Notes under the pieces: model-generated
Told to the model about the DNA's origin: nothing
What the model saw: only the letters and a program-made list of their open reading frames with translations
Databases searched by the model: none
Source: Clostridia bacterium
GTDB taxonomy: Bacteria; Bacillota; Clostridia; Oscillospirales; RGIG577
DNA: 64,000 nt
Assembly: GCA_017405765.1 (NCBI GenBank)
Contig: JAFQZS010000027.1
Span: 1 to 64,000, forward strand
Reading direction: 5' to 3'
Translations under genes and position numbers: made by a program
Shown: positions 40,898 through 49,116 of the stretch, piece after piece
Position numbering within the stretch: position 1 is the stretch's first letter
How the letters are laid out: every line of letters begins with the position of its first letter

Positions 40898-41313
40898 GAT
40901 AAATGAGTAGAAATTCAAAGGAGTTATCCAACCGTCCCGCATGGTAAGAATACTTGAAAATCTACAATAGTAGAAATTCAAAGGAGTTATCCAACCGTTA
41001 TTGCGTAATTGTCGGCAATGGATCTACAATAGTAGAAATTCAAAGGAGTTATCCAACAATCACATATACAGACGAAGGAGGAGGAATCTACAATAGTAGA
41101 AATTCAAAGGAGTTATCCAACCTAGCAAACATCCTAGCAAATGCGCTAGATCTACAATAGTAGAAATTCAAAGGAGTTATCCAACAATGAAGTGAATACA
41201 GATAATTGGTATCATCTACAATAGTAGAAATTCAAAGGAGTTATCCAACCGTATACCGTACATTGCCCTTTGTATCGATCTACAATAGTAGAAATTCAAA
41301 GGAGTTATCCAAC
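40897..41313 (-). CRISPR. Type V-A CRISPR array, 6 full repeats plus 1 degenerate, 6 spacers
   Basis: 36-nt repeats at 40960, 41022, 41086, 41150, 41214 and 41278 are identical; in crRNA sense each starts GTTGGATAACTCC and ends AATTTCTACTATTGTAGAT, the Cas12a 5' handle hairpin. Spacers are 26-28 nt. Transcription is on the minus strand with the leader at the high-coordinate side. The leader-distal repeat (40897-40932) keeps only its 5' part (22 nt) and has lost the hairpin, as expected for a terminal repeat. No spacer matches elsewhere in this window by eye. Confidence 0.97.
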
Positions 41314-41448
41314 TCCTGCGTAGTCGGATCGCACATATTAAGCAATCCGGTTTTGTTTAACATACATAAAAATTTGGCTGTTTTTATTAGATAACTCCTT
41401 ATATACATATTAAATCCCGCCATGAAGACCGAGGTTTGCAAATAATCC
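41314..41448 (-). promoter_or_regulatory. CRISPR leader with embedded anti-repeat
   Basis: 135 bp between the first repeat and cas2, mostly A+T-rich. At 41387-41400 it carries, on the crRNA strand, AAGGAGTTATCTAA, which can pair with the repeat segment TTGGATAACTCCTT (one G-U pair). The 28 nt next to the first repeat (41314-41341) are more G+C-rich and spacer-sized. TATATA near 41400-41405 could be a -10. Confidence 0.65.
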
Positions 41449-41724
41449 TTACGTTACTATTATCATATCACTTTCTTCGTTCCTTGCATAGCCGTATCTT
41501 ACTATTTCACAATTCGGATTTAGTTTTATTATATATACGCTGTCCGTTTGATCAAAGGTCTTTAAAAACTTGTTGTCGATGTCGCTCATAATATTATTCA
41601 ATATGCGCTCGCTGTTTTCGATTTGGAACACAGAGTATTGCAGACGGTAACCGAATTTGGATAAATACTTTGCAAATTTGGTCCGCTTTTTGTTGTCTGA
41701 TATATCGTAGCTTATAATAATCAC
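41449..41724 (-). CDS. cas2: Cas2, CRISPR adaptation nuclease-fold protein
   Basis: 91 residues with the ferredoxin-like Cas2 start IIISYDISDNKKRTKFAKYL (catalytic-position Asp in YDISD) and LQYSVFQIENSE. It dimerises and bridges two Cas1 dimers for spacer integration. Overlaps the cas1 stop by 4 nt. Last cas gene before the leader. Confidence 0.93.
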   Translation of the reverse strand: MIIISYDISDNKKRTKFAKYLSKFGYRLQYSVFQIENSERILNNIMSDIDNKFLKTFDQTDSVYIIKLNPNCEIVRYGYARNEESDMIIVT

Positions 41725-42695
41725 GGTTTTTGCCCTCCAAAATAAAAGACAGGATAATCCTGTATGTCCTTATGCCGCATGAATGCCCGGTAATAACTTT
41801 GAATATATAAATATATCTCCTCCCTGTTTTCAATAATGGGTTTGGCAAGCCATGCAGTGTATTCGGCGTTCTTCTCCCATTTGAGCAAATATTGCCCCTG
41901 CTTAACAATAAAATCGTCCTCTTTGCATCTCTTCAGGTTAATTGCTTTTCTCAGCTCGCTGTCTATAAGGGGCCTGAACGGTTCTACGATATCACATACG
42001 AGGGACTTTCTCATATAAAACTCCCTGTGCAGCACTCCGCAGTATGTATCAAAACCGTAGCAGCCAAGAAGCGCGTCGATATAAGAAAACAGTATCGTAT
42101 ATCCGATATCCAGAAGTGCGTTTATCATATCGCATTTGGTGCGGGGAGCACGCCTCTGCCAAAGCGTGTTGTTGAATATGGCAGGGAAATAAATCCGCGA
42201 CGCGCTTCCTTCGAGCCCGAGTATCGTATGCAGAGTATCGGCGTTTGATATATTGTCTTCGTATTCTTTTAAAAGCGCTATCGCTTCCGTCTGCTTTTCG
42301 CTTTTTGTTCTTATTTTTGAAATGGCCAGCCTTTGATTTGCAATCTTGTTTTTAATCAGATGTCCGGCGATATCCAGTGAATCATACATATACTGCGCTC
42401 TGCGCAGCAGGGTATTGCCTTCAAGACGGGAGCCTATAACCTGATAGGGCTTCATACTGTGGGTGAGCAGTATGATGGAAAAACCGAATTTTTTTGCTCT
42501 CTGTATAAGCCCGCTTGTGATGCTTCCGCTTCCGATTGCAAAAACGGCGAATATTCGGTAACAGGTGCATTGAAATTTTATCTTTCCCTCGGCTGTTTTC
42601 ACGACGAGATTATCGTTGGAGAACGAAAGCTTTTCTCCGCGGCTGAAAAAGACAAACAGAACTTGCTTTTTTGAAAAATCACCGGCTGAAATCAT
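41721..42695 (-). CDS. cas1: Cas1 integrase, type V-A
   Basis: 324 residues. Metal ligands are visible as Glu in LGLEGSASRIYF, His in GVLHREFYMRKSLVCD, and acidic residues in DIVEPFRPLID. Integrates new spacers with Cas2 at the leader end. 12 bp after cas4. Confidence 0.95.
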   Translation of the reverse strand: MISAGDFSKKQVLFVFFSRGEKLSFSNDNLVVKTAEGKIKFQCTCYRIFAVFAIGSGSITSGLIQRAKKFGFSIILLTHSMKPYQVIGSRLEGNTLLRRAQYMYDSLDIAGHLIKNKIANQRLAISKIRTKSEKQTEAIALLKEYEDNISNADTLHTILGLEGSASRIYFPAIFNNTLWQRRAPRTKCDMINALLDIGYTILFSYIDALLGCYGFDTYCGVLHREFYMRKSLVCDIVEPFRPLIDSELRKAINLKRCKEDDFIVKQGQYLLKWEKNAEYTAWLAKPIIENREEIYLYIQSYYRAFMRHKDIQDYPVFYFGGQKP

Positions 42696-42707: not shown

Positions 42708-43268
42708 TCAATCCAATAACGACCTGTCGCAGAGAGGCTCGTATATGCAAGCCCTGCATTTGCTTTCGTTTGTTTGCTTATAATTCGATAAATCGAACGT
42801 TCGCAGACCGGTTATCGCCGCTTCAAACTTTACGAGCATATCTTTATCGTTTTCCGGAAGCTTTAAAGGATAGCGCTTATTGTCATCCAGACTGTAAAGA
42901 TTGAGCGAATTTACCGTATATCCCATTTCGCGCAGCGCAAAGCATTGAGCGTACATCTGGAAAACGTAGCCGTCGTAAATAACGGAAATCTTCTTTTTTC
43001 GCTCAGTTAAAACGCCGTGTTTTTCGTCAAAGACATCGATCTTGCCGAGCAGGCCGTATTTTTCGCAGTAAACAGACTGCCCGCTCACTACGGCGGCGCG
43101 TGTCGAATACTTTGCTTCGTCTATGGTCTTATGAGCGTGAGTGCCGTTTATCTGCGCCTGCTCTTTGAAAGCAAGCGCATCACGGCTGCCGTAAAGATTA
43201 TGAAAGTATATTGAGGCGGGGCAGAATATAAAATCATTTATCCAGGCAATCTGTATCGGCTCTTCCAT
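42708..43268 (-). CDS. cas4: Cas4 exonuclease, spacer-processing
   Basis: 186 residues. Iron-sulfur cysteines in FCPASIYFHN and KCRACIYEPLCD (C-x2-C-x5-C). RecB-like nuclease residues: His in GTHAHKTIDE, Asp in GKIDVFDEK, Glu-x-Lys in TERKKK, and QMYAQ. Trims prespacers and checks the PAM in type V-A adaptation. Starts 1 bp after the cas12a stop. Confidence 0.95.
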   Translation of the reverse strand: MEEPIQIAWINDFIFCPASIYFHNLYGSRDALAFKEQAQINGTHAHKTIDEAKYSTRAAVVSGQSVYCEKYGLLGKIDVFDEKHGVLTERKKKISVIYDGYVFQMYAQCFALREMGYTVNSLNLYSLDDNKRYPLKLPENDKDMLVKFEAAITGLRTFDLSNYKQTNESKCRACIYEPLCDRSLLD

Positions 43269-43269
43269 C

Positions 43270-46200
43270 TTACTTAAACCTCGTTTGCACGTATCTCAGC
43301 CATTCGGCGTTCGATATCTTTGTCGTCCAGTCGCCGTAGCCTTCGGCGCGGTCTATCTGTTCAAGCACCCAAAGCCCCTTTCTCGCTATGTTGAACGCGC
43401 CGTTCGCGTCCGCGTCGGCGGGCAGTCCGTCCGCGCCCGCTTCGCTTGAGAAGAAAACGCCGTTCTCGTCGGCCACGGGCGAGAGGATAAAGTCGCGTCC
43501 GACGCTTGCCGAGCTGTATCTTAAAGCAAACACGAGCCTTAAGTCGGAAATGAGCTCGGCGAAGAAGCGGGCACCGTTTTGGTTAAGTATCTCTTCTTTA
43601 ATATCGCCGCGCTTCCAGTCGATATCATTCCCGTCAAAGAGCGCCTTTAAGTGCTTCGTTACGTTTCGCGTCTCTACGCCGCCTTTGCTGTTATTAAGGC
43701 TGCGGTCGTATCTGTATCGTGTGTCGCCGTGTGTGCATACGGTCCATTCGGTGCGGGAACCGCGGGCCTTGTCCGTAAAGTCGTTGTAATCAAAGGAGAA
43801 CTCGAACCAATCGCCGTCTGCGTTATACGATATGCTCTTGAATTTCGAGAAAAACGCCTTTGCCTTTGCGATATTTTCATATTTGGGCTTCAAAAGATCG
43901 GTAAAGCCCGTCACGGGGTCTATTTTGCTCGTGTTCCACGCCGGAACGTAGAAGATAAAGCCGCACTGCTTCTTAAGCTTTTCGAACGACTCGAATCTGC
44001 TCGTGAGCTGGAGCGCGTTGTAAAGTCCGCCCGGCTCGTTCTCGCCGCAGTCCTTTAAGACGAGATAGTTGAGCTTTTCGATAAGCGCCTTTTCGAAATT
44101 CTGATATACCTGCTTTTCAACTTTTTTTCGCGTATTCTTAAAGCCGCTGTTTAAGTCTTCCATAACGACTATGGCGTTGTACTTCACCATAAAGCGCGCG
44201 ATATGCGAGACGGCCTGACTCATGTATCCGGCCTTCAGCTCTTTGATGCTTTCTATGGCTCCCCAGTTCTCGCGCGCAGCCTTTCTCTTTTCCTCGCGCT
44301 CGTCGAGTATTTTATGATACGGCGTTTCAAACGGGATTTCTTTTCCGCTTCGGTCCGTGTATTTTCCCGTTATCGTATTGAGGGAATACTGAATTGGCCT
44401 GCCTTTTTCATCCTTAACGACGCGGCCGCTTCTGTCTATCATTGAAATATAGAGCAGATTGCGTTCGCCGCGGTCTATGCCGATTATATTTACGCCCGGA
44501 TTGTTTTTCAGGTACGTGCATACTTCGTCGTTTATGTCGCTTCGTCCGTTCGCCTTGAAATTCATCGTTATCGGCACGTGGAACAGGAACTTGTCGACCG
44601 TATAGCGTCTGTCTTTGATTATGTCGTAATCAAAGAGCGACGTTTCGCCTTTTTCCTTCGCGTTCGGGTTCTTCTTCTCTATCGGCTGTCCCTTTGGGTG
44701 CGTGACGTTCTTTGGAATTGACTTTTTGCGGTAGAACACCTCGGCCTCGCCGTTTAGCTTATATACGACGTCGGCAAGATTTTTTTCGTCGAACAGCGCG
44801 CGCCAGTACATCGTGTGGAGCGAGGGACGCCCCTTGCTGTAAGGCGAAAAGTCCTTGTTGTATATCTCAAAGAGATAGAGCTCGCCTTCTTTTACGAGAG
44901 AGTCAATATATTTTGCGTCTATGTTTTTATACGTTATCTTGTACCCCTGTTCGCTTACTTCACGGTAGAACGCGCTTATGTCGGCGTACGTGTCCGTATC
45001 TGAGAACGAGAAGTCGAATACGTCCCAACCTTCATATTTTGATATTGCTGATTTATAAAAATCAATAAGCTTGTGGCAGTCGGATATTGAAAAATGCTCA
45101 CCTTTTGTGAAGCTTTTATTTTCTTTGATACTTATTATTTCATCCGACGCGCCGTGTTTTTTAGGGTTTTTTGTAGGGATGAGATTTTTCGGGAGGCTCA
45201 TGTGTGGGTTGGGCAGCAGTTTGTACTGCACTTTTTTATATACGTCCGAACCGTCAGACCCTTTTACGTTCTCAAAGCTCTTATTATGCTTCTTGTCCAT
45301 TATGCCGAGATAGTATTTGCCGTCTTTTATAAAGAGCAGGCCGAGATTAGCCTTTTCCTTACTCGTGTCCCAACCGTTGAGAAGGGTGCTGCTTGAAAAA
45401 TTGAGCTTTATCTTTTCGGTGCTGTACGGCTTTTTCGTCGCGAAGTTGCGCACCTTGTCGTAAAGTCTCGTGACGGGCTCAAGATGCCCGTACAGCGGGT
45501 CGAACGCGCCGTAGAACGCATCGTTTTTCTTATATTCCGCATCGGACGGCACATAGAGCGGCTTTATGAAGTGATATAGCTTTAAAAGCGCGTCAAGCAA
45601 CGCCTTTAAAAGCTCTCGGTCTTTCTGCCCGAGCTTACAGCCGTCCTCGCGCGGAGCGTTCAAAAGCGCGTCCGCGTTCTTATACGCCTCGACGAACGCG
45701 GTTGTCCTGTCGTCTGCGCCCGCCGCGAAATATCGGCTGACGAGCTTATCCCCGTTCGCCCGTACGCCGTACACGTCCGAGTCAAGCTTGCGCACGTATG
45801 CGTCAACGGCTTTTTCGACTTCCGCAAGGAGAATATACGAGGGATCTTTCCTTTTTCCCCGGCTCTCGCCGTCATCCGACCGATCTTCCCCGTAAACGGC
45901 GCGCGGGATTACGCTGTAATCGCCGAATATAGCGACGGAGATGGCGGTTATCGCGTCGCTTTTTACGTATAAATCGTCAAGACCGCCGTCCCGGAGCGCG
46001 GATAAAACGTCTTTCAATTCCGCAAGCACGCTTTTACCGTCCTTCTCTGCGGTAAGCTCCCGGCAGAAGCCGTTGACCGCGTCCAGAAGCGCGTCCGCGT
46101 CGTCGAAGGCCTCCGGGAGGAACGATACGCTTTCCCGGTCCGACAGTATCTGCTTTCGAAGCATCGTCATGAGCGGTAGCTTGTCCTTCGGATTTTTCTG

Positions 46201-46998
46201 ATTATAGAGGTTTATATATACGTTTATTCCCTTAAACAGCGATTTGTCCGTTTTTTTGCCGCCGATGATGAGATTGTATTCGTCTATGCCGCCCTGCGTG
46301 AGAACGTTGTTATAGTTTTCGAGAGTGAATAAGTCGTTAAGTGCGCGCCTGTTCAAATATTCTCCCAATTCACCTTTAAGCGTTTCAAGCTCTGACGAAA
46401 GGTGAGGCCGGATAATCTCATATACGCGCATATTATTTATAAAGATGGGCAAATTCTCGTTTATCAGCCTGAACGCCACGGCGGTGGATTTTTTTTCGGC
46501 AGTGTACATATTCATGCGGTTCGTGTTAAAGCCCGTAAAATACGTCGTAAAGCTCTTGAAGCTTTCGTCAAAATACAGATCCGGGGCGTTTTTTTCTATC
46601 CACCCTTCAAGCTCTTTTTGTATAAGCTCTTTTTTGTTGAGTTGCTTATATTTTTTATTGTCGGTGAACGACGCAGCGATTTCCTTTCTCAAGGCAATTT
46701 TGACTGCGTCAAACGATATTTTCCATTTTTCTTCTTTGCGCTCGTCGGCAGACGACGTGTAAAGCCGATAAAAGGATTCGAGATTGCTCAGCGTAACGTT
46801 TGAGAGACATTCGTCTATAAAGCTTTTATGGTACTCGTCGATGGTCTTTTTCATTTTTTTATAGCTTTCGGCCAGGGCTTCGTCTTCGTCGAGCACATGG
46901 CGGGCTTCGATGTATTTTTGGGTCTCAGCAATGGGGATAAGGGCAAAGCGCAGTGTTTTGCTTTGCGGATATTTGCGGGTAAACTCGTTTAACGTCAT
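43270..46998 (-). CDS. cas12a: Cas12a (Cpf1) RNA-guided endonuclease
   Basis: 1242 residues, normal for the family. Begins with EFTRKYPQSKTLRFALIP. crRNA-processing region HPKGQPIEKKNPNAKEK (His about 767) precedes YDIIKDRRYTVDKFLFHVPI. RuvC residues: D842 in IIGIDRGERNLLY, E947 in IVVMEDLNSGFK, D1197 in DADANGAFNIARKG. All three catalytic motifs are intact, so it should cleave PAM-adjacent DNA and process its own pre-crRNA. AAAGGAGG lies 10 nt before the ATG. Transcribed from a strong promoter at 47068-47096 that carries a candidate self-repression target. First gene of the cas12a-cas4-cas1-cas2 operon. Confidence 0.97.
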   Translation of the reverse strand: MTLNEFTRKYPQSKTLRFALIPIAETQKYIEARHVLDEDEALAESYKKMKKTIDEYHKSFIDECLSNVTLSNLESFYRLYTSSADERKEEKWKISFDAVKIALRKEIAASFTDNKKYKQLNKKELIQKELEGWIEKNAPDLYFDESFKSFTTYFTGFNTNRMNMYTAEKKSTAVAFRLINENLPIFINNMRVYEIIRPHLSSELETLKGELGEYLNRRALNDLFTLENYNNVLTQGGIDEYNLIIGGKKTDKSLFKGINVYINLYNQKNPKDKLPLMTMLRKQILSDRESVSFLPEAFDDADALLDAVNGFCRELTAEKDGKSVLAELKDVLSALRDGGLDDLYVKSDAITAISVAIFGDYSVIPRAVYGEDRSDDGESRGKRKDPSYILLAEVEKAVDAYVRKLDSDVYGVRANGDKLVSRYFAAGADDRTTAFVEAYKNADALLNAPREDGCKLGQKDRELLKALLDALLKLYHFIKPLYVPSDAEYKKNDAFYGAFDPLYGHLEPVTRLYDKVRNFATKKPYSTEKIKLNFSSSTLLNGWDTSKEKANLGLLFIKDGKYYLGIMDKKHNKSFENVKGSDGSDVYKKVQYKLLPNPHMSLPKNLIPTKNPKKHGASDEIISIKENKSFTKGEHFSISDCHKLIDFYKSAISKYEGWDVFDFSFSDTDTYADISAFYREVSEQGYKITYKNIDAKYIDSLVKEGELYLFEIYNKDFSPYSKGRPSLHTMYWRALFDEKNLADVVYKLNGEAEVFYRKKSIPKNVTHPKGQPIEKKNPNAKEKGETSLFDYDIIKDRRYTVDKFLFHVPITMNFKANGRSDINDEVCTYLKNNPGVNIIGIDRGERNLLYISMIDRSGRVVKDEKGRPIQYSLNTITGKYTDRSGKEIPFETPYHKILDEREEKRKAARENWGAIESIKELKAGYMSQAVSHIARFMVKYNAIVVMEDLNSGFKNTRKKVEKQVYQNFEKALIEKLNYLVLKDCGENEPGGLYNALQLTSRFESFEKLKKQCGFIFYVPAWNTSKIDPVTGFTDLLKPKYENIAKAKAFFSKFKSISYNADGDWFEFSFDYNDFTDKARGSRTEWTVCTHGDTRYRYDRSLNNSKGGVETRNVTKHLKALFDGNDIDWKRGDIKEEILNQNGARFFAELISDLRLVFALRYSSASVGRDFILSPVADENGVFFSSEAGADGLPADADANGAFNIARKGLWVLEQIDRAEGYGDWTTKISNAEWLRYVQTRFK

Positions 46999-47067: not shown

Positions 47068-47096
47068 ATTTTATTGTGTTATGTTATTGATGTCAA
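47068..47096 (-). promoter_or_regulatory. cas12a promoter
   Basis: On the minus strand TTGACA (47096-47091), 17-bp spacer, TAAAAT (47073-47068). Predicted start near 47061, giving a 5' leader of about 63 nt before the cas12a ATG at 46998. Confidence 0.85.
47070..47084 (+). promoter_or_regulatory. Candidate CreR target: PAM plus 11-nt seed inside the cas12a promoter
   Basis: TTTA (47070-47073) is a Cas12a-type PAM and overlaps the -10. It is followed on the plus strand by TTGTGTTATGT (47074-47084), identical to the first 11 nt of the pseudo-spacer downstream of the isolated half-repeat. Identity then breaks (positions 12, 13, 16 and beyond). Such limited seed matching permits Cas12a binding without cleavage in known CreR systems. 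Confidence 0.8.
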
Positions 47097-47111
47097 GCAT
47101 TTTTAACAAAA

Positions 47112-47218
47112 AGTGTAAAAAGCGTCTGCTGCATAAGTGCGGCAAACGCTTTTGGGAACGTTGTTTACGGGCGTATTAAAAAAACCACATAACACAAATC
47201 TACAATAGTAGAAATTAT
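47112..47218 (-). ncRNA. Candidate CreR: solitary crRNA-like RNA regulating cas12a
   Basis: Predicted transcript of about 107 nt. It starts 2 nt before AATTTCTACTATTGTAGAT (47216-47198), identical to the 3' hairpin half of the array repeat, so the 5' end would need almost no processing. The pseudo-spacer begins TTGTGTTATGTGG at 47197. No second repeat follows. A hairpin terminator (AAAAGCGTTTGC / GCAGACGCTTTT, 47153-47117) with T-rich tail ends it 15 bp before the cas12a -35. The fit to the cas-regulating RNA class described for type V-A is strong; expression is not shown. Confidence 0.8.
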
Positions 47219-47224
47219 AAATAT

Positions 47225-47253
47225 ATTATACCGCGCTTTTTTCGCATTTTCAA
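47225..47253 (-). promoter_or_regulatory. Promoter of the candidate CreR
   Basis: On the minus strand TTGAAA (47253-47248), 17 bp, TATAAT (47230-47225): near consensus, so constitutive expression is likely. +1 is expected at about 47218. Confidence 0.8.
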
Positions 47254-47436: not shown

Positions 47437-49116
47437 ATGAAAAAGCTGATAAAATTATTGGGCGCCGTCTGTTTTATTGCCGCGCTGAGTGCGGCGATCA
47501 CGGCGTCGGCATCTGCCGCGGACTTGATCGACAGCGGCTTTTGCAGCTGGGATTACGAAACCGGAGAGTGGACGACGGACGTTTCATGGTCGCTGTCTTA
47601 TGACGGCGTGCTGACAATAAGCGGCTCGGGCGATGTGCGCGGTTATATGGATCCGGGCACATGGCCGTGGGACGCATACCATAAGGATATAAGATCGGTA
47701 GTAATAAAGCAGGGCGTAAAGAGCATAGGAGTTATATTTATGGAGCCGGAGGGAGAAGATTATTACACGGGCCTTACGTCGGTCTCGCTCCCCGCGTCGC
47801 TTGACTACGATATAGCGGATGAGGCAAGCGCCGGCTTTCGCCCGTTTCGGGGCTGCCCCAATCTGAAAGAGATAAGCATAAATCCCATGAACAGAGACTT
47901 CGCCTCTGTGGACGGCGTTGTATACGACAAGGGAAAAACCTCGCTCTATCTGTGCCCGGCGGGAAAGGAGAGCGTAAGTATTCCCGCAACGGTTAAGTCC
48001 ATTCATTTTTATGCGTTTGAGGGCAACGATCACCTTACCAGCCTAACCATACCCGACAGTGTGGAGACCATATACGGCCGGGCGTTCAAGGACTGCACCG
48101 CCCTTGAGAGCATAAAGATAGGAAAAGGACTTAAAACGTTCTACAATTCGCCTTTTGAGAATATGCCGAGTCTTAAAAGCATCGCAGTTGATGAGGGGAA
48201 CACGAAGTTTTCCTCGCTCGACAACGTGATATACAATAAGGACAAAACGGCTGTTATATATTGCCCCGAGACAATAACGACCCTCAGACTGCCCGCGACG
48301 CTCACACAGGAGCCGTCGATCGATAATACGAATATAGAACGCTTTGAGATAGACGAGGCAAACGAGACGTTTTCTGTCGCCGACGGCATCGTTTACAGCA
48401 AGGACATGAAAAAGATAGTGCGCTGTCCCGTTAAAAGAAAGGGCGAGGTCGCGATACCTAAGGGGGTAACGGAGATAGGCGAGAGCTGCTTTTCGGAGTG
48501 CGGCGAGATTACTGCCGTTCTGATCCCGGACAGCGTAAATGAGATAGGCTATTCGGCCTTTGAGAACATGAGCGCGCTTGAGAGCATAGTGATACCCGAC
48601 GGGATAACGAAGATAGGCGGCTGGTTCGGAAGATGCACAAGCCTTAAGACGATAACCGTTCCGGCAAGCGTTTCGCAGTTCGGGTATGCCGCGTTCATGT
48701 GGTGCGACAGCCTGACGGACGTTTATTTTTTGGGAGACGCCGAGGCGTGGGAGGCGCTTACGGAGGATCTTAGCCCGAGCGCAGACGCGAATCTTTTGAA
48801 CGCCCGCGTTCACTTTGCGGCGGACGAGATAAGGGATACGCCCGTAGGAAATATAAAGCTTGAAAAAACAGACGCCGGAAGCTGCGTGACCCTGACCGTT
48901 GATTTCTATAACGGAAGCGCCGCGGCCAAGGCCTGCGTAGCCCTATATGACGAAAGCGGCCGCATGACGGATGCGGCGCTCGTGACGCTGCCGCAAAACG
49001 GCGCCGTGACAAAGACCGTAAAAAGCGCGTCGGACGTGCGCGAGGCGAAGGTGTTCGTTCTGGACGGCGCGTTTCTGCCGCTTTATGAACATTCCGAAGC
49101 CGCCCTGACCGACTGA
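47437..49116 (+). CDS. Secreted BspA-like leucine-rich-repeat protein
   Basis: 559 residues with signal peptide (KKLIKLLGAVCFIAALSAAI). Multiple LRR_5/BspA units (LTSLTIPDSVETIYGRAFKD, ALESIVIPDGITKIGG, LKTITVPASVSQFGYAAF) span about 85-445. A C-terminal beta domain of about 90 residues (SCVTLTVDFYNGSAAAKACV) resembles Ig-like modules seen in Clostridia surface proteins. No SLH or LPxTG anchor, so it may be released or held non-covalently. Stand-alone gene divergent from the cas operon. Confidence 0.88.
   Translation: MKKLIKLLGAVCFIAALSAAITASASAADLIDSGFCSWDYETGEWTTDVSWSLSYDGVLTISGSGDVRGYMDPGTWPWDAYHKDIRSVVIKQGVKSIGVIFMEPEGEDYYTGLTSVSLPASLDYDIADEASAGFRPFRGCPNLKEISINPMNRDFASVDGVVYDKGKTSLYLCPAGKESVSIPATVKSIHFYAFEGNDHLTSLTIPDSVETIYGRAFKDCTALESIKIGKGLKTFYNSPFENMPSLKSIAVDEGNTKFSSLDNVIYNKDKTAVIYCPETITTLRLPATLTQEPSIDNTNIERFEIDEANETFSVADGIVYSKDMKKIVRCPVKRKGEVAIPKGVTEIGESCFSECGEITAVLIPDSVNEIGYSAFENMSALESIVIPDGITKIGGWFGRCTSLKTITVPASVSQFGYAAFMWCDSLTDVYFLGDAEAWEALTEDLSPSADANLLNARVHFAADEIRDTPVGNIKLEKTDAGSCVTLTVDFYNGSAAAKACVALYDESGRMTDAALVTLPQNGAVTKTVKSASDVREAKVFVLDGAFLPLYEHSEAALTD

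Follow-up and report, generated by a model that had tools for sequence, protein, structure and literature searches.

A candidate creR gene upstream of cas12a in a type V-A CRISPR locus of a Clostridia bacterium

Cas12a is a major genome-editing enzyme, and the cellular limits on its self-damage have been little studied. Does the short interval in front of a cas12a gene in a Clostridia bacterium encode an RNA that turns Cas12a against its own promoter? The interval lies in a 64,000-nt stretch of contig JAFQZS010000027.1, which was analysed as a whole (the window). A first-pass annotation of the window had proposed a self-contained CreR circuit at this position, aimed at the cas12a promoter. CreR (cas-regulating RNA) is said to stem from 'modulatory mini-CRISPRs', reportedly described by Liu et al. 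in Cell Host Microbe in 2023. Two reviews describe CreRs of types I-B, I-E and V-A as autorepressors that act on cas promoters via partial complementarity (PMC13131331, PMC12737573), and the annotation was correct in treating such autorepression, type V-A included, as known.

The type V-A locus and the candidate creR gene

The type V-A locus of the window is complete and lies on the minus strand, in the order cas12a-cas4-cas1-cas2-array:

43270-46998, minus strand: cas12a (1242 aa; NCBIfam TIGR04330 with 1319.8 bits, cut-off 300)
42708-43268, minus strand: cas4, type V (TIGR04328)
41721-42695, minus strand: cas1, type V (TIGR04329)
41449-41724, minus strand: cas2 (TIGR01573)
40904-41313, minus strand: CRISPR array with six repeats GTTGGATAACTCCTTTGAATTTCTACTATTGTAGAT and a terminal repeat without the handle half

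The six array repeats with a handle half extend from 40960 to 41313. Neighbouring ORFs resemble, by eye, rimP, nusA and infB. A divergent gene on the plus strand adjoins the CRISPR locus (47437-49116) and encodes a protein that looks like a leucine-rich-repeat surface-type protein, with weak NCBIfam similarity to adhesin families.

Upstream of cas12a, and in the same direction, the minus strand carries in succession a putative creR promoter, a half-repeat, a pseudo-spacer, a hairpin and the cas12a promoter. The features of this interval are:

47225-47253, minus strand: putative creR promoter TTGAAA-17-TATAAT (11/12 consensus in the promoter scan)
47198-47216, minus strand: solitary crRNA handle (3' half-repeat) AATTTCTACTATTGTAGAT, with 19/19 identity to the 3' half of the array repeat
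47178-47197, minus strand: pseudo-spacer TTGTGTTATGTGGTTTTTTT, with its seed in nucleotides 1-11 (47187-47197)
47118-47153, minus strand: terminator-like hairpin between creR and cas12a (from the fold; a presumed terminator)
47068-47096, minus strand: cas12a promoter TTGACA-17-TAAAAT (11/12 consensus in the promoter scan)
47074-47084, plus strand: target of the seed (protospacer, non-target strand) between the cas12a -35 and -10, with 11/11 identity to the pseudo-spacer
47070-47073, plus strand: PAM TTTA, complementary to the TAAA of the cas12a -10 and adjoining the seed target

The promoter, half-repeat, pseudo-spacer, hairpin and cas12a promoter were all located where the first-pass annotation had placed them. 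In the putative creR promoter, 17 nt separate the -35 (TTGAAA, 47253-47248) from the -10 (TATAAT, 47230-47225). With 8 nt between the end of this -10 and the handle, transcription would start at the handle or 1-2 nt ahead of it, which agrees with the start that had been predicted 2 nt before the half-repeat.

The Cas12a crRNA handle is formed by the 3' half of the repeat, which is the half retained in creR. Genome-wide, the handle AATTTCTACTATTGTAGAT occurred only in the array and at 47216-47198, and the 17-nt 5' half of the repeat (GTTGGATAACTCCTTTG) was not present at the solitary half-repeat. Close to the array, at 41384-41403, lies TTAGATAACTCCTTATAT, which is similar to the 5' half absent from creR and shares GATAACTCCTT with it in the opposite orientation.

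The predicted creR RNA of 108 nt has a folding energy of -30.9 kcal/mol (z = -4.95). The strict terminator scan did not call the hairpin at 47153-47118, because its U-run is broken and lies partly within the stem. Rfam gave no family match for the region and, besides cas12a, no ORF of at least 80 aa started in the creR interval.

Pairing between the pseudo-spacer and the cas12a promoter

The seed target lies between the cas12a -35 (TTGACA, 47096-47091) and -10 (TAAAAT, 47073-47068). The match of 11 nt beside the TTTA in the -10, followed by a break, was confirmed to the base as annotated; identity between pseudo-spacer and target ends after nucleotide 11. In a pattern search of the 2.17-Mb genome, TTTN followed by the first 10 seed nucleotides had a single site, the cas12a promoter. 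None of 1000 shuffled pseudo-spacers gave a TTTV-anchored match of 11 nt in the cas12a upstream region of the window (longest match, 9 nt), nor did any of 653 foreign array spacers under the same criterion (longest match, 8 nt). A chance match is therefore rejected for the window.

Solitary half-repeats in other cas12a loci

The annotation had suggested a search for covariation of pseudo-spacer and promoter in related genomes. No further cas12a was found in the nearest genomes searched, two congeneric genomes lacking the gene, and a wider collection was therefore assembled. It comprised 74 non-redundant cas12a loci, 52 from a genome-contig collection and the others from genome searches. Isolated half-repeats were searched for both with and without knowledge of the target.

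In total, 11 of the 74 loci (window included) had a solitary half-repeat whose pseudo-spacer matched the upstream region of its own cas12a beside a TTTV PAM. Pseudo-spacer and target varied among these loci and matched inside each locus. The covariation that the annotation had asked about was thus found, in unrelated loci. According to their record titles, the hosts included Clostridia, Bacteroidota and Campylobacterota. On a Cas12a tree in which 8 of the 11 carriers were placed, creR carriers were dispersed, never two as sister tips. In L015, whose Cas12a was the closest relative found (58% identical), no half-repeat was detected.

Seed lengths were 15 nt in L129, 11 nt in the window, 10 nt in L110, 9 nt in L021, L023, L032, L055 and L133, 8 nt in L030 and 7 nt in L022; L024 matched at 8/10 positions, with a mismatch at position 6 and an uninterrupted match of 5 nt. 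The PAM was TTTG in L023 and TTTA in the other 10 loci. TTTA accounts for 54% of the TTTV sites in these upstream regions, and the probability of at least 10 of 11 being TTTA is about 0.013. Nine loci, including the window, had a solitary half-repeat that lay at most about 650 bp upstream of cas12a with no more than one handle mismatch, and every half-repeat of this kind matched its cas12a upstream region beside TTTA. The remaining two were L023, with its guide beyond the array and its TTTG PAM, and L133, where the handle loop is 3 nt longer and the PAM is TTTA.

When 654 ordinary array spacers were compared with their own cas12a upstream regions, the longest TTTV-anchored match was 8 nt. The pair scan gave 7 hits against 0 for a control motif. 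The weakest single cases were L022, whose 7 nt were equalled by 6 of 1000 shuffles, and L024. Judged by these sequence comparisons, chance is excluded as the source of the half-repeat/seed pairs.

A degenerate-handle scan of the remaining loci yielded 5 raw hits, close to the 3.4 found on average in the controls. L133 alone was accepted, because its handle forms a proper hairpin and it also has a terminator and places its PAM in a -10-like site; the other four were judged to be chance hits. Degenerate look-alikes of the half-repeat ahead of cas12a in L020 and L059 had no PAM-anchored match of at least 7 nt and were left uncounted. In the interval from +3833 to +4380 relative to its cas12a start, L059 also carries a twelfth half-repeat, which stands before a truncated second cas12a (a 66-aa remnant). 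Its pseudo-spacer matches 9 nt beside a TTTC, around 125 bp before the start codon of the remnant, and this guide seems to have outlived its cas12a gene.

These comparisons bear on other readings of the half-repeat. It might be a decoy or sponge, with an RNA that merely occupies Cas12a and a spacer sequence that is irrelevant. Solitary repeat units proposed to compete with crRNAs do exist in viruses (PMC8616872), and the creR handle is intact. However, the pseudo-spacers match the local cas12a upstream regions with a PAM far beyond the controls, and the context is not phage-like. There was no significant phage match, viral contigs, phages and plasmids gave no useful homologue, and the half-repeat of the window lies beside a complete cas locus, not on a virus or mobile element. 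We therefore regard a decoy as unlikely.

Debris of a former or relocated array, combined with a chance seed match, is very unlikely. Just half a repeat is left, and L018 and L065 show that single repeats occur at array or contig ends. Nevertheless, the half kept is exactly what Cas12a binds, a promoter and a hairpin of its own are present, neither the 1000 shuffles nor the 653 foreign spacers reproduced the match, and unrelated loci have the same arrangement. We give just as little credence to an addiction system of the CreTA/CrePA kind, in which the RNA would repress a toxin instead of, or besides, cas12a. CreA RNAs are similar in general anatomy (PMC9458426), but the sole genomic site with PAM and seed is the cas12a promoter, and besides cas12a no ORF of at least 80 aa starts in the interval, a limit that a smaller ORF or a toxic RNA would escape.

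Layouts were assigned by eye from consensus promoters, with Bacteroidota promoters left unscored. The order promoter, half-repeat, pseudo-spacer, hairpin and target was common to the window, L110, L129, L133 and L024, and the first four of these have a compact layout. The distance from -10 to handle was 8 nt in the window and in L110, 6 nt in L129 and 9 nt in L024; in all four, the promoter is positioned to give a start at the handle. A PAM within a -10-like TAAA was found in the window, L032, L055, L110 and L133. Hence, the traits that the first-pass annotation had called distinctive (a PAM that doubles as the -10, a 5' end set by the promoter, and compactness) are not unique to the window but recur in other loci.

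Other arrangements also occurred. The half-repeat was antisense to cas12a in L022. In L023 it lay past the array end, at +7336 (~7.3 kb) from the cas12a start, with a 9-nt TTTG match to the cas12a upstream region. In L032 and L055, where it was about 50-150 bp from cas12a on the upstream side, the targeted promoter comes first and the half-repeat follows before the cas12a start, so that the guide is apparently part of the cas12a mRNA leader. Processing by Cas12a could there cleave its own mRNA, freeing the guide. The leader position in these two loci would suit a pre-crRNA-like hairpin whose sole role is as a site of processing or an element of mRNA stability. In the window, however, half-repeat and cas12a promoter are separated by a hairpin, and this reading, the least likely of all, would leave the seed match unexplained.

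With the bulge described below counted, all pairings were 7-16 bp long. In L021, L030, L032 and L055, the match restarts for 6-7 nt once one extra guide nucleotide after the seed is skipped. Accordingly, 4 of the 10 guides have exactly one extra nucleotide directly after a seed of ~9 nt. For a single RNA insertion, the ten pairs gave 29 matched nucleotides where 6.6 were expected (shuffling test, p about 5e-5); mismatches, DNA insertions and two-base insertions showed nothing unusual in the same ten-pair test. L024 is similar past position 9, yet falls outside the count. The test was designed after the pairs had been seen, and L032 and L055, which have ATTGTA in common, are possibly not independent, so that the bulge is a lead and not a result. 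A bulge in the guide of the window itself was ruled out, as the match does not restart after one extra base; the pattern is thus confined to other loci.

Proposed circuit and related systems

The half-repeat, PAM and seed match, kept in 11 loci although their sequences differ, strongly support the proposed CreR-like circuit. The interval is very probably the creR gene of this type V-A locus, with an RNA that would guide Cas12a to repress its own promoter. From sequence alone we infer that creR is transcribed, that its RNA is loaded into Cas12a and that it represses cas12a. Transcription from 47253-47225 would start at the half-repeat or no more than about 2 nt away from it. The RNA would then have a 5' end that is nearly a mature crRNA handle from the start, and would need little or no processing by Cas12a. 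Its 3' end is probably at the hairpin (47153-47118), with probable 3' trimming. Cas12a with creR RNA would read the TTTA PAM in the cas12a -10 and pair with 11 nt of the spacer between -35 and -10, which would be sufficient to hinder RNA polymerase but insufficient to complete the R-loop and cut. In this way Cas12a would lower its own expression, and array crRNAs or anti-CRISPRs that occupy Cas12a would relieve the repression; this titration logic is carried over from the published CreR class.

The limitation of pairing to at most 16 bp fits guides selected for binding without cutting. In vitro, AsCas12a needed 17 matched nucleotides for stable binding and cleavage (PMC6050341) against 11 nt here, so that occupancy in vivo may be weak. 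The main objection to the circuit is that 11 bp might bind too briefly for repression.

As the CreR class has already been published, the creR of the window is a further case of it. It shares with CreR a crRNA-like RNA near the cas genes, a PAM with limited promoter complementarity and, as predicted here, autorepression by the effector. Unlike CreR, as far as the available descriptions go, it has a single half-repeat and a 5' end placed by the promoter. The long-form tracrRNA is an autorepressor of Cas9 that also uses a short match to repress without cutting, in type II and with another scaffold. Like CreA of CreTA, creR combines an ectopic repeat, a seed-limited promoter match and, as predicted here, the effector as repressor (PMC9458426). 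Unlike CreA, its target is cas12a and not a toxin, and its handle is undegenerated; type I CreA usually has two degenerate repeats (PMC9458426). The scaRNA of Francisella novicida Cas9 likewise represses transcription through a short match without cutting, but belongs to type II, has another RNA scaffold and acts on a lipoprotein operon (PMC9458426). The solitary repeat units put forward as RNA anti-CRISPRs of viruses are also isolated repeat-derived RNAs able to load the effector, but they are carried by viruses and are not known to match cas promoters (PMC8616872).

The half-repeat form, the promoter-set 5' end, the PAM in the -10, the leader-embedded form and the one-nucleotide bulge were not mentioned in the literature searched, and the primary CreR paper may have them. 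The pairings of at most 16 bp and the bulge in 4 of 10 guides are possibly new. We tentatively suggest, as a possibility that we rate below even, that half-repeat CreRs are a widespread and repeatedly evolved autorepressor of Cas12a, with a promoter-set 5' end, a PAM in the -10, pairing below the ~17-bp cleavage threshold and often a one-nucleotide bulge after a seed of ~9 nt.

The compact circuit, in twelve loci from several phyla, points to natural guides that may let active Cas12a bind and not cut. The contrast with the ~17 bp needed for stable binding in vitro makes this question directly testable. The one-nucleotide bulge, if real, would offer a simple design of repression-only guides for wild-type Cas12a.
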